From: an uncultured Victivallis sp.
GTDB lineage: Bacteria > Verrucomicrobiota > Lentisphaeria > Victivallales > Victivallaceae
Reading direction: 5' to 3'
DNA: 64,000 nt
Assembly: GCA_944389895.1 (NCBI GenBank)
Contig: CALXOA010000052.1
Coordinates: 1 to 64,000, forward strand
The translations under genes were made by a program, and so were the position numbers. The notes under the pieces were generated by a model. The model did not search any database, was not told the DNA's origin, and was given only the letters and a program-made list of their open reading frames with translations. Shown here piece by piece: positions 40,767 to 45,699 of this stretch. The stretch's first letter is position 1. Each line of letters begins with the position of its first letter.

Positions 40767-41774
40767 TCAATCGAGCCGGACAGGAGGGATCAGGGTTCCG
40801 GAGCGATTGAACTGCCTGCGTCCGGCAATCAATCCGGCGAGTCGTCCGATCTCAACGGTCGGCTGACAGAGACGGGTCACTCCGGCAGCCAGCGGCTCGG
40901 CGTTGTCGACGAATGCCAGCATCCGATCCGCAAGTTCCGGGAAAACCTGACGGGTACACTCGTAAAGCGAACCGCTGTTGATGACCAGAAGCGGGGGCTC
41001 CCGCCCATCATCGGCAACAGCCTCCATACGCACCTGCTGCAACTGTTCAAGCCGCTCCGGAAAACGAATCTCGACCCGCCGGTATTCTATCGCCGGGTCG
41101 AGTTTTTCGAGCAAACCTCTTTCTCGCTCCTTCCAGAGACCTTCCTCTCCCGCCACGGCCAGAAAAAGCACCCGGCGCCCATGTCGCTCATGGATGAACT
41201 CCGCAACCATCTCGCCGGCACGGTAATGGTCAACGCTGACGAAATGGATGCCGTGGTAACCGCTCCGGCGGTTGACGGCCGTCACCCATCCGCCGGCATC
41301 GGCCAGCTCGCGCATCGCAGCCAGCTCGTTTTCCTCCGGAGACAGCCAGAGACTCGGCACGTCAGGCGTTTCAAGCAGTTCCAGGAACAGCTTGTCGGAG
41401 AACTGCCCGATCGAAAGCCCGATTCCGGTACCGTCCAGAGCGGCGTAAACCCCCTGAACCACAAGCCCGAAATAGCAGTCACCGGCCCAGCCGCGCCAAT
41501 CCCTGCGGATCACCAGTCGAACCTCGGTCGGCAGTTTTTCCGGAATCGAGGGACGGCGGAAAAACGATCCCTTTCCGGCCCGGCGCACCATCATATTGTT
41601 CTCGACGAAGTAGCTCAGCGCCTTCTGAACCGTCGGGCGACAGACATTGTAACGCCGGCAGAGTTCCCGTTCCGGAGGGAGCCGCCCCTCGGGATCCTCC
41701 TGAAAAAGGCGCATCAGATCTTCCCTGATCCGCAGATAGATCGGTTTATAGGAATCTCCCCTGTGCTCCGCCAT
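40767..41774 (-). CDS. GntR-type winged helix fused to LacI-like sensor domain
   Basis: The 335-residue regulator has a GntR winged helix (residues 8-75; PIYLRIREDLMRLF, RLPPERELCRRYNVCRPTVQKAL) and a periplasmic-binding-protein-like effector domain with FVSVDHYRAGEMVAEFI and RVLFLAVAG. It ends 12 nt from the convergent uvrC gene. Its own promoter at 41819-41847 overlaps repeated TATGT-type words, suggesting autoregulation. No carbohydrate enzyme is immediately downstream; the upstream MlaA-hydrolase gene or distant genes may be its targets. Confidence 0.85.
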   Translation of the reverse strand: MAEHRGDSYKPIYLRIREDLMRLFQEDPEGRLPPERELCRRYNVCRPTVQKALSYFVENNMMVRRAGKGSFFRRPSIPEKLPTEVRLVIRRDWRGWAGDCYFGLVVQGVYAALDGTGIGLSIGQFSDKLFLELLETPDVPSLWLSPEENELAAMRELADAGGWVTAVNRRSGYHGIHFVSVDHYRAGEMVAEFIHERHGRRVLFLAVAGEEGLWKERERGLLEKLDPAIEYRRVEIRFPERLEQLQQVRMEAVADDGREPPLLVINSGSLYECTRQVFPELADRMLAFVDNAEPLAAGVTRLCQPTVEIGRLAGLIAGRRQFNRSGTLIPPVRLD

Positions 41775-41908: not shown

Positions 41909-44242
41909 TCACTCATCCGCCGGAAGGACAAGAGCATCGAGAATCGCCTGCTGAACCGTGGTAACATAAAGATTGCCCAGATGGGCGCCATGGTCAAACC
42001 AGGTCAGGCGCGTTCCGAGGGTCCGGTCAAGCCAGAGACGATCCTCAGGCGTCAGCAGGAAATCGTCGTAGTTGTGAATCACCCGGATCTTCGGATTCCC
42101 CTTCAACGACTCCTCGATGGAACGCAACCCGGACTGCCGGTAAAGCTCGGCCAGCGGAATATCCGGCTTTTCAGGTGCGAGGAACTGCTCGGCATATTCC
42201 CGGAAGGAAACCCGGTCTATTTCGCAGTAGAGCGCATTGCGATCCCCCCACTTGTAAGGTTTCGCAAACTGCGGCAATCCCCGTTCGCGATGAGCGACGA
42301 AGAGAAGTCCGCGCATCGAAATCCGGAAGTAAAGCGCGGCAATGTAGTTCGCATCCTCCTCGGAAATCGGAGCACGGTAGTCAACGCCTTCCGCCGGTTC
42401 CGCCTCGGGATCGAATGGAGGAAACCTGGTCATCATGGCCGCGACCTGCTGGCCGCCGGCGTCGACGAGATGATCGATCGCCTCGGAAGCAGTCCACCCC
42501 GAACCGGTTTCGGCAAGGCTGTCGGCCCGCTCCATCGCATGAGAAAGTTCAACCGGCGGATTGATCGCAAGGAAACGCTGTATTCCAAGCATCGGTTCCT
42601 TTTCTTCAAGCTCCGAGATCTTCAACGTGTGGAGCGCGCCGAACGAATAGCCGAGCATCACGATCTCCGGCGCCGAAATCAGTTCGTCACGTTCAAGGCT
42701 GTCGAGAATCCGGCGCAGCGCCATGCGGACGTTCTCTGCGTCCTCCGGCAGAAACCCCGGCAGCGGATTGTTGCCGACCGCCGTCATGAACTGCCAGGAA
42801 AAGGTGCTGTCGAGCGCCAGCACCATCCAGCCGTGGCGATTCAGAAGCTCCGCCAGCGCGGTGGAAGTCATCCCGTAATAGTTGCCGCCGATACCGGGCA
42901 GCAGAATCGCCAGCCGTTCCGGGGCAGCGGCTTTCTCATCGTTCTCACTTTCCGGCTCCTCCTCCGGTTCCGGCGCTTTCCAGAACCCGTACTGCAACTC
43001 CGGCCGATCCGCCGCAAATTCAATTTCCCGTTCCAGGCATTTCTTCGAAAAGTCGGAGTTGAACCATGACAACCGGAAATACCACGGATCATCGTTGTTT
43101 TCAGCGACGAAACGGGCGACCCGCATCGTATCGAGCACCGGTGTCTGCGGCTGATAATTGCGGATCGAATTCCAATTCCCGGTAAGCTCCGCCGGTTTCG
43201 GAGTCGGCTCCCATTCCGGCCCGGAAGAGGAAGTCGCCCCTTCCGCAGACGGTTCCACGCTCTCTTTCTCTTCCGCGGCATTCTCCGCCGCCTCCGCGGC
43301 AGCCTTCGCCTGCCTGCGCGCTTCCGCGGCGGCATTGCGCAGGTGATAGAAATAGAGCCGCTGAGCAATTTCACGCTGCGCGACCGAGAGCTCACGAAAA
43401 CTCTTGTACTTGTCGCTGCTGCCGGCCATCGTCTTGGAGAAGGTACGCTCCGCGATCACCATCCGGTTCAACGCGGTCGCATATCCTGCGTAAGGGATGT
43501 ATGTCTTGAGATCAAATGCCATATCGAAAATACTGCCGACCGTATCGCGGACATTGACCGACGACATCAGAGGCAGCACCAGCGTACACCCCGGCCCGAT
43601 TCCCCACTCCGCGAACGCCTGGCCGAAATTGGAATCGGTACTGTAAAAATCAAAGTAGTAGGCGGCAGGATCAAACAATCCCGCGATTCCCATGGTCGTA
43701 TTGATCAGAAACCGGGCAGTCTCGTCACCAGCCCCCCCCCACTCCGCCCGGAGCAGGCAGCTGAAAGCGCGGGCTGGGAACTCGAGGTTGACGCAGAGAT
43801 TGTTGATCTTCTCGATCACCGGTCGCGGCAGAATCGATGTGTAGACACGGCCAACCGGATCGGCGACATACTCCATCACGAAATCCGTACAGGCGAACAT
43901 CGCTCTGTTGAACCCCTCAAGAGGATCTTCACCTGCAAGCTCGTTTTCCAATCTCGAAGGCGTCCAGGGACCGCAGGAATCCTCCTCCGGCACGGCAGTT
44001 GCTTCCGATGTTTCAGAAGATTCCGGCGCGGACTCCGGGGACTCGACGACCGCCGCTTCCGGGACCTCCGGAACAGCCGGAGACTCAGAAGATTCTGAAG
44101 ATTCCGGCGCGGCTCCCGGGGACTCGACGACGACCGCTTCCGATGTTTTCCCTGACGGTTCCGGTGTCGTCGAACGGCACCCCGCGAAAGAAATCATCGC
44201 CAGGACCGTCAGCAGGATCGCGATTTTTCTGAAAACCATCAT
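41909..44242 (-). CDS. Lipoprotein fusing an MlaA/VacJ domain with an alpha/beta hydrolase
   Basis: The 777-residue protein has a lipoprotein signal ending in FAGC (Cys22), an acidic Ser/Glu/Pro linker with two near-identical 24-residue units (about 36-87), and an MlaA domain (about 105-290). MlaA motifs include EDPLEGFNRAMF, FLINTTMGIAGLFDPA, FGQAFAEWGIGPGCTLVLPL and VRDTVGSIFD. MlaA sits in the outer membrane and removes misplaced phospholipids. After an Ala/Glu linker, residues 440-777 form an alpha/beta hydrolase with oxyanion segment LLPGIGGNYYGM, nucleophile elbow GYSFG (Ser533) and a late His (FDHGAH). The ATG at 44242 follows AAGGGA; a TTG six codons upstream is rejected. Lipid hydrolysis is inferred. 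Confidence 0.85.
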   Translation of the reverse strand: MMVFRKIAILLTVLAMISFAGCRSTTPEPSGKTSEAVVVESPGAAPESSESSESPAVPEVPEAAVVESPESAPESSETSEATAVPEEDSCGPWTPSRLENELAGEDPLEGFNRAMFACTDFVMEYVADPVGRVYTSILPRPVIEKINNLCVNLEFPARAFSCLLRAEWGGAGDETARFLINTTMGIAGLFDPAAYYFDFYSTDSNFGQAFAEWGIGPGCTLVLPLMSSVNVRDTVGSIFDMAFDLKTYIPYAGYATALNRMVIAERTFSKTMAGSSDKYKSFRELSVAQREIAQRLYFYHLRNAAAEARRQAKAAAEAAENAAEEKESVEPSAEGATSSSGPEWEPTPKPAELTGNWNSIRNYQPQTPVLDTMRVARFVAENNDDPWYFRLSWFNSDFSKKCLEREIEFAADRPELQYGFWKAPEPEEEPESENDEKAAAPERLAILLPGIGGNYYGMTSTALAELLNRHGWMVLALDSTFSWQFMTAVGNNPLPGFLPEDAENVRMALRRILDSLERDELISAPEIVMLGYSFGALHTLKISELEEKEPMLGIQRFLAINPPVELSHAMERADSLAETGSGWTASEAIDHLVDAGGQQVAAMMTRFPPFDPEAEPAEGVDYRAPISEEDANYIAALYFRISMRGLLFVAHRERGLPQFAKPYKWGDRNALYCEIDRVSFREYAEQFLAPEKPDIPLAELYRQSGLRSIEESLKGNPKIRVIHNYDDFLLTPEDRLWLDRTLGTRLTWFDHGAHLGNLYVTTVQQAILDALVLPADE
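43980..44140 (-). repeat. Imperfect tandem duplication in the MlaA-hydrolase linker
   Basis: Two roughly 81-84 bp units encode AVVVESPGAAPESSESSESP and AAVVESPESAPESSETSEAT-type sequence. They share many identical stretches at DNA level (for example GGGGACTCGACGAC and GATTCCGGCGCGG words on the plus strand). Copy number is prone to change. Confidence 0.7.
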
Positions 44243-44275
44243 GATGTCCCTTCGTTTCAAAACCCGAGGCGGAAA

Positions 44276-45514
44276 CTATTTCATCAGCAATGCCAGCAGG
44301 TTCCAGTTCAGAAATCCCGGCCCGGAAATTCCTCTGCCGGTTTCCGGGCTGTAGTATTCGTGCAGCACGCCGGTCGTACGCGCATCTTCCGCCAGCATTC
44401 CAACCGTGTTGGCGGCCAGTTCGGCGGCAACGTCATCGAAACCGTAACGTTTCAGGCCGCACCAGACCATGTAGTCGGCGATGATCCAGATCGGCCCGAG
44501 CCAGTTCGACGGATTCCCGCGCGAGACTTCCGGAGAATACATCGGTTCATCGGCTGCGAGCGAACGGATCCCCCACGGAGTCCAGAACCGCCCGGGTTTC
44601 ACCAGATGTTCGCGAACCATCCGTTCCGCCTCTTCCGGAGCAGCCACCCCGGCCCAAAGCGGCAGAAAACTGCTCCAGGCGCCGATCTTCAACGGCAGAG
44701 CATGCCAGAAGGCATCGAGAGAAACGTTCAACGTAAACATCCGGAACACCGGGTGCGCCGTCCGGCACTGTACGTCGACCGTGTAATAGAGCCCGTCGCG
44801 CCGGTCGAAGCAGTATTTGCGTATCGCCGCGCCGAGCTCGTCGGCGGCACTCGTGAAGAACTGTTCATTTGCCGAGTCACCAAGGCGGCCGGCAAATTGT
44901 GCAGCGGCGCGGAAATCACTGTATACGAGACAGTTCAGATAAATATGCGCGCTTGACTTCGGCGGACGCCCCCACGCCGCGGGGTCGTCGTCGACGCCGA
45001 TCGCCGCATCGCTGTTCCAGACAAACAGATTGGTCGGCAACGATTTGGAACGGTTGATCCGACATTCGGCAAACCGGCGCAGCCCGGCCATGACAATGTG
45101 TTTCTCCCCGGCGGAGAAAGCCCCGCAATCATCGAGCAGAAGTGCGAACTGCGCATGGACCGGCTTCCCGATATTCTGCCCGGGATCCATGGTGTCGAAA
45201 ACGTCACGGTCGCTGTCGGTCAACAGAATCGGCATACTGCCGTCCGGCGCCTGGTGATCAAAGAAAGTCAGCAGAGATCCCTTCGCATGGATGATGGCCT
45301 GATCACGAAACGCGGCATCACCGGTTTCTGCGGCGATGCCGAGAAGCGCGACGGAAGCCCAGTAGGAGTCCCAGTCCCACAGGTTGCTGGAGTACTGGCC
45401 GCCGGGATCGAGGTAGGGACGCGTCAGGTACCCGGTAGGTTCGTTGAACATTCTGGCCGCCTGCTTCATCACCAGCTCAAGCAGTACAGCCCGGTTTTCT
45501 TCAAATGGATTCAT
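44276..45514 (-). CDS. Glucosidase / mannosylglycerate hydrolase-like enzyme (GH63-type)
   Basis: The 412-residue protein is an (alpha/alpha)6-barrel glycosidase. Family-like motifs are LWDWDSYWASVALLG near residue 45, SLDAFWHALPLKIGAWSSFLP, FWTPWGIRSLAADEPMYSP and RGNPSNWLGPIWIIADYMVWCGL, which hold the acidic catalytic pair in GH37/GH63 enzymes. No signal peptide is seen, so it is cytoplasmic and likely trims an imported alpha-glucoside or mannosylglycerate. The start is uncertain: ATG 45514 (chosen), 45547 or 45553. The promoter at 45569-45596 excludes longer forms. It ends 33 bp before the MlaA-hydrolase gene. Confidence 0.75.
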   Translation of the reverse strand: MNPFEENRAVLLELVMKQAARMFNEPTGYLTRPYLDPGGQYSSNLWDWDSYWASVALLGIAAETGDAAFRDQAIIHAKGSLLTFFDHQAPDGSMPILLTDSDRDVFDTMDPGQNIGKPVHAQFALLLDDCGAFSAGEKHIVMAGLRRFAECRINRSKSLPTNLFVWNSDAAIGVDDDPAAWGRPPKSSAHIYLNCLVYSDFRAAAQFAGRLGDSANEQFFTSAADELGAAIRKYCFDRRDGLYYTVDVQCRTAHPVFRMFTLNVSLDAFWHALPLKIGAWSSFLPLWAGVAAPEEAERMVREHLVKPGRFWTPWGIRSLAADEPMYSPEVSRGNPSNWLGPIWIIADYMVWCGLKRYGFDDVAAELAANTVGMLAEDARTTGVLHEYYSPETGRGISGPGFLNWNLLALLMK

Positions 45515-45568
45515 CGTGTATTTCCCAACCGAATTTTCACATTTCATTCCCATTAAAATTTCGGAAAT

Positions 45569-45596
45569 AATATAACGTTTCCTGCGACAAATGCAA
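45569..45596 (-). promoter_or_regulatory. Promoter of the GH63-type gene
   Basis: On the minus strand TTGCAT (45596-45591), 16 bp spacer, TATATT (45574-45569). Predicted start near 45562. Confidence 0.6.
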
Positions 45597-45699
45597 TCCA
45601 TGCAGATCGGAAAACCTTCAGAGAAACGTCCTCAGGACCTTCCGGCGGCCGAGAGTGAAGGAAATGCTCAAAAGGGATGGCGGCCGGAAAACCTGCATT

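Follow-up and report, generated by a model that had tools for sequence, protein, structure and literature searches.

The window, the whole stretch of 64 000 nucleotides that was analysed, encodes a single polypeptide in which an MlaA-family lipoprotein is joined to an MlaY-type α/β-hydrolase with a conserved Ser–Asp–His triad. In the genomes sampled, this hydrolase and MlaC are almost mutually exclusive, and the genomes that carry the hydrolase have no PldA. The fused protein is probably a self-contained outer-membrane MlaZ–MlaY that breaks down misplaced phospholipids rather than sending them back; we infer its phospholipase activity from the homology to MlaY and from the triad. A pairing of lipid extraction with lipid degradation had been put forward in the preliminary description of this DNA and stands as the best explanation of the fusion, but the principle itself was already known from the two-protein MlaYZ system of Pseudomonas aeruginosa, published in 2023. 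New here are the fusion of the two parts into one polypeptide and the finding that it occurs in genomes lacking both MlaC and PldA.

Architecture of the fused protein

The preliminary description placed one polypeptide joining MlaA to a hydrolase at this locus, and its coordinates and strand were confirmed (Table 1). An in-frame TTG at 44260 is an alternative start that would add six residues. A frame split by a sequencing error, which had been raised as an objection, is ruled out: the frame is intact in relatives, and the same single frame is found in dozens of independent genomes. The window belongs to the Victivallaceae, in the Lentisphaeria. The long frame recurs at the genus, family, order and class levels, and the one-frame architecture was found down to 23% identity with the window protein.

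Table 1. Features of the fused gene and its product (positions in the window).
Feature	Position	Strand	Details
Fused MlaZ–MlaY gene	41909..44242	(-)	777 aa; ATG start 44242; single uninterrupted frame
Lipoprotein signal peptide, residues 1-22	44177..44242	(-)	lipobox FAGC; Cys22 predicted lipidation site; read from sequence
Low-complexity Pro/Glu/Ser tether, residues 23-84	43991..44176	(-)	pLDDT < 50 at residues 21-83
MlaA domain, residues 105-291	43370..43930	(-)	PF04333 E 3e-45, 154.7 bits (cut-off 25)
C-terminal helix of MlaA part	43265..43369	(-)	helix 297-326 in AlphaFold2 model
MlaY-type α/β-hydrolase, residues 356-777	41912..43177	(-)	AlphaFold2 pLDDT 93.6 (domain alone); MlaY homology
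Catalytic Ser533 (GYSFG)	42644..42646	(-)	invariant, 55/55; aligned with MlaY S187
Catalytic Asp727 (HNYDD)	42062..42064	(-)	53/55, one Glu (Fusobacterium), one truncated row; aligned with MlaY D388
Catalytic His754 (GAHLG)	41981..41983	(-)	54/55, one truncated row; aligned with MlaY H415

Most of the fused relatives have a cysteine behind a hydrophobic helix. The tether, which differs in length between relatives, holds a near-duplicate segment (EAVVVESPGAAPESSE / EAAVVESPESAPESSE) that suggests a recent internal duplication. The flanking genes (40767–41774 and 44276–45601) lie on the same strand and encode a GntR-type regulator and an MGH1/GH63-like glycoside hydrolase. The genomic context is uninformative for the fused gene, because no gene family recurs beside it across families in the neighbourhood comparison. 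A protein scan of the genome-contig records returned two loci only.

The fused protein belongs to the MlaA family: it scores above the curated cut-off of PF04333 and has the MlaA fold, with Foldseek matching this half to the MlaA structure 5nur with a TM-score (target) of 0.80. Residues N112, R113, N152, R177, F178, N181, R232 and D233 of the MlaA half are invariant among the fused homologues. The docking partner of MlaC in Escherichia coli is MlaA, whose C-terminal helices and tail recruit it where the channel opens to the periplasm (PMC10719372). The chain of the fusion runs from the MlaA C-terminal helices and a linker into the hydrolase (at about residue 356), and the hydrolase is attached at the position equivalent to the MlaC docking site of E. 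coli MlaA.

Pfam sees the hydrolase half weakly (Abhydrolase_6, E = 0.001, under its cut-off), and the proposed architecture is borne out for this half by AlphaFold2 and Foldseek. Foldseek gives an α/β-hydrolase fold with a query-normalised TM-score of ∼0.4 and no close relative; the PDB profile and Foldseek matches are to generic α/β-hydrolases only, with PlaF and monoglyceride lipases among many. We accept the divergent domain as real despite the weak Pfam score, because it is modelled with high confidence (Table 1) and its fold is recognised by Foldseek. The whole chain was modelled with a pLDDT of 87.8 and a pTM of 0.86; as ∼13% of the chain is disordered, this pTM implies that the two domains are held in a fixed arrangement, as predicted by the model.

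A serine hydrolase with a GYSFG elbow and a late histidine had also been claimed; Ser533 and His754 are the residues concerned, and the acid is Asp727. The objection that the triad might be incomplete did not hold. All three residues are invariant in the first alignment (49 homologues), and the triad is complete in 53 of 55 sequences in a wider alignment, which takes in P. aeruginosa and identities down to about 25%; the two exceptions are a truncation at a contig end and a Glu in place of the Asp.

Distribution and complementarity with MlaC

The main sample comprised 195 genomes of the phylum, which were searched with the window protein and with PF04333. The fusion is present in 49 of these genomes, and a further four have MlaA and the hydrolase as side-by-side genes. 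Adjacent genes are the form found in families f3, f5, f53 and f54 and in one member of f1, and the two genes often overlap in different frames. The hydrolase is predicted to work in the periplasm, because the stand-alone versions carry signal peptides of their own (4/4 of the split-form hydrolases read). Every genome with a hydrolase-profile match of E < 1e-30 also has MlaA (53/53 fused or adjacent; 195 searched), and the MlaA half is an MlaA-family protein dedicated to an MlaY-type hydrolase. A tree test rejected one clade of all fused sequences (AU p = 0.0097); either fusion took place on two or more occasions, or it took place once and some descendants were split again.

MlaA is present in 74 of the 195 genomes, 52 of them without MlaC and 22 with it. 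All 52 of the former, the window genome among them, carry the hydrolase, which is absent from 21 of the 22 latter; the exception is G173. MlaA is a separate gene in the MlaC genomes that were fetched, usually adjoining MlaC. The hydrolase and MlaC are near-perfectly complementary in the sampled genomes; because the pattern is strongly clustered by lineage, few independent events lie behind it, the genome counts are not independent events, and several of the genomes are drafts. With MlaC absent, the fused protein is not part of a canonical Mla system.

The genome of G173 (L044, L045), from outside the class, carries on one contig both an MlaC–MlaA pair of the conventional kind and, apart from it, a fused MlaZ–MlaY gene. 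Its fused gene groups with that of Lentisphaeria G192 and looks like one acquired by horizontal transfer. Both systems are also carried by G206 and G207, which are 9% contaminated. Of the short-frame MlaA genes lacking MlaC in a sample of 198 genomes from across the class, 12 were fetched: eight adjoin a hydrolase, two are cut by a contig end and the one in G266 is uncalled. The last, in G241 (L105; Lentisphaeria, 88% complete), has neither MlaC nor an adjoining hydrolase and is a clear exception in the class.

PldA (PF02253, the PLA1 β-barrel) was found in none of the 53 hydrolase genomes. LpxC is present in 52 of the 53, and these genomes therefore make lipid A. As to mlaBCDEF, which the preliminary description had left to be looked for, the window genome lacks MlaC and has two MlaE and two MCE proteins, located away from the fused gene. 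Most fusion genomes still encode an MlaE/MCE transporter, and lipid might pass to it from the fusion. MlaE and MCE proteins are both absent from six of the 53 hydrolase genomes (G014, G031, G058, G097, G144 and G162), drafts in which gaps are possible; all but one of the six are closely related, so the set represents about two loss events. In another set of close relatives (G022, G034, G067, G061, G092 and G141), MlaA and the hydrolase were lost together and the MlaE and MCE genes were kept; the two systems were therefore lost independently.

Relation to MlaYZ and to other lipid-handling systems

A tblastn search of plasmid records with the hydrolase gave matches in P. aeruginosa, Skermanella and Fusobacterium vincentii. 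The hydrolase gene is followed directly by an MlaA-family gene in all three records (‘VacJ’ in Pseudomonas and Skermanella, detected by profile in Fusobacterium). The P. aeruginosa hydrolase has 453 residues and is MlaY/PA3238, since its S187, D388 and H415 are exactly the triad reported for that protein (PMC11977310); the neighbour of MlaY/PA3238 is MlaZ/PA3239 (PMC11131202). The window protein aligns with MlaY at 28% over 361 amino acids (blastp, E = 1e-32) and with MlaZ at 35% over 135 residues. The family profile gives MlaY 230 bits, compared with 32 bits for the best non-family hydrolase in the 195 genomes. On sequence grounds, the hydrolase half is assigned as a homologue of MlaY and a member of the MlaY lipase family. 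The best tree places the MlaA half apart from P. aeruginosa MlaZ; a clade of all hydrolase-linked MlaA proteins was not rejected by the tree test (AU p = 0.15).

In the published model of MlaYZ (Guest et al., 2023, as described in PMC11131202, PMC11977310 and PMC12569750), MlaZ extracts misplaced phospholipid and hands it to MlaY, which degrades it; the phenotypes given in these papers support the degradation of mislocalised lipid by MlaYZ, and MlaY is mostly called a putative lipase there. The fusion resembles MlaZ–MlaY (PA3239–PA3238) in that an MlaA-family protein is dedicated to a hydrolase, predicted to be periplasmic, of the α/β type and with the same triad, and an extract-then-degrade route is proposed for both. 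In P. aeruginosa, however, two genes run in the order Y–Z and the cell has a complete canonical Mla system as well, whereas here there is one polypeptide in the order Z–Y with a lipoprotein signal, and neither MlaC nor PldA. No MlaA–hydrolase fusion was found reported in the searchable literature, a scope that excludes the primary MlaYZ paper, or in the literature on Lentisphaerae.

The F. vincentii locus (L101, 7791–9864) is an MlaY–MlaZ-like gene pair from the Fusobacteriota with Glu at the position of the catalytic Asp (NADE). MlaC was not found in this record (2.1 Mb), which repeats the Lentisphaeria pattern in another phylum. On plasmid pSM-1 of Skermanella mucosa (L102, 7878–14258), a TamB-domain gene in the same direction follows mlaY and its MlaA-family neighbour; TamB is another envelope lipid-transport protein. 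The mlaY frame on the P. aeruginosa plasmid pPALO11 (L103, 7425–9066) is disrupted into two pieces and the adjoining mlaZ is intact.

Among other known systems, the canonical Mla pathway (MlaA–MlaC–MlaFEDB) shares the outer-membrane MlaA channel domain with the fusion but differs in that the fusion genomes have no MlaC, and have MlaE and MCE proteins in most cases but not in all; the canonical pathway returns lipid, whereas the fusion would destroy it. PldA (OMPLA) degrades misplaced outer-leaflet phospholipids, a role to which that of the fusion may be likened, but it is a β-barrel acting in the outer leaflet, whereas the hydrolase of the fusion is predicted to be periplasmic and PldA is absent here. 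The Veillonella-type MlaEFD system with a long transenvelope MlaD likewise has no MlaC, but it also lacks MlaA, and it transports lipid rather than degrading it (PMC10665443).

Proposed route, alternatives and implications

In the route that we propose, the MlaA-type half would take strayed phospholipids from the outer leaflet, and these would pass through the MlaA channel to the periplasmic face. There the hydrolase, sitting at the MlaC docking position, would receive the lipid in a hand-over from channel to enzyme that is intramolecular. Ser533–Asp727–His754 would then cleave the acyl ester, the lipid being degraded on the spot rather than carried back by MlaC, and the products would be recycled. 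In this lineage, outer-membrane asymmetry would then be maintained by the fusion, in place of PldA and of the return of lipid through MlaC. A more far-reaching version, in which lipid destruction alone maintains the outer membrane across most of a bacterial class, with the fusion as the sole asymmetry machine and independent of any Mla/MCE transporter, is a possibility that we find about as hard to dismiss as to adopt, leaning slightly against it.

The complementarity with MlaC and the attachment at the MlaC docking end would also fit a hydrolase that replaces MlaC as the receiver or holder of the lipid and passes it to another carrier or to an MCE protein, hydrolysis being secondary; that most fusion carriers keep MlaE and MCE proteins is in line with this. 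We nevertheless regard such a role as unlikely, given that the triad persists among the 55 homologues even at identities of about 25%, that six carriers are without any MlaE or MCE protein and that P. aeruginosa MlaY mutants lose cardiolipin degradation (PMC11977310). It is similarly improbable that the enzyme is an acyltransferase, a lysophospholipase or an esterase acting on some other envelope lipid (lipid A, lipoprotein or dietary acyl esters), with MlaA as an anchor only. The substrate is not readable from the sequence, and esterases, thioesterases and acyltransferases of the fold family lie at a similar distance; however, the MlaA residues are conserved throughout, MlaA is kept in the side-by-side versions, where covalent anchoring is impossible, and none of the 195 genomes has a strong match to the hydrolase profile without MlaA. 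A chance fusion or an assembly artefact with no functional link between the halves is scarcely credible and is refuted by the comparative data: the weak Pfam scores of the hydrolase, and nothing else, speak for it, whereas dozens of genomes have the architecture, the fused sequences fall into two groups that branch apart, the triad is conserved, and versions with adjacent genes exist in three phyla.

The direction and the purpose of Mla transport are disputed. If the fused protein acts as a self-contained MlaZ–MlaY, it would offer a line of evidence, not reliant on mutants, for the removal of outer-leaflet lipid by MlaA-type channels. Together with the genomes that lack MlaC and PldA, some of them also without an inner-membrane transporter, it would be evidence that degradation can substitute for return. 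As a single chain, the fusion would also be suited to structural work on how lipid passes from channel to enzyme, and the range of MlaYZ is extended to Lentisphaeria and Fusobacterium. Should the fusion prove to be the sole asymmetry machine, retrograde transport would be dispensable for outer-membrane asymmetry. In this gut Victivallis-type bacterium the usual lipid-return shuttle is missing, and the fusion seems to take its place.
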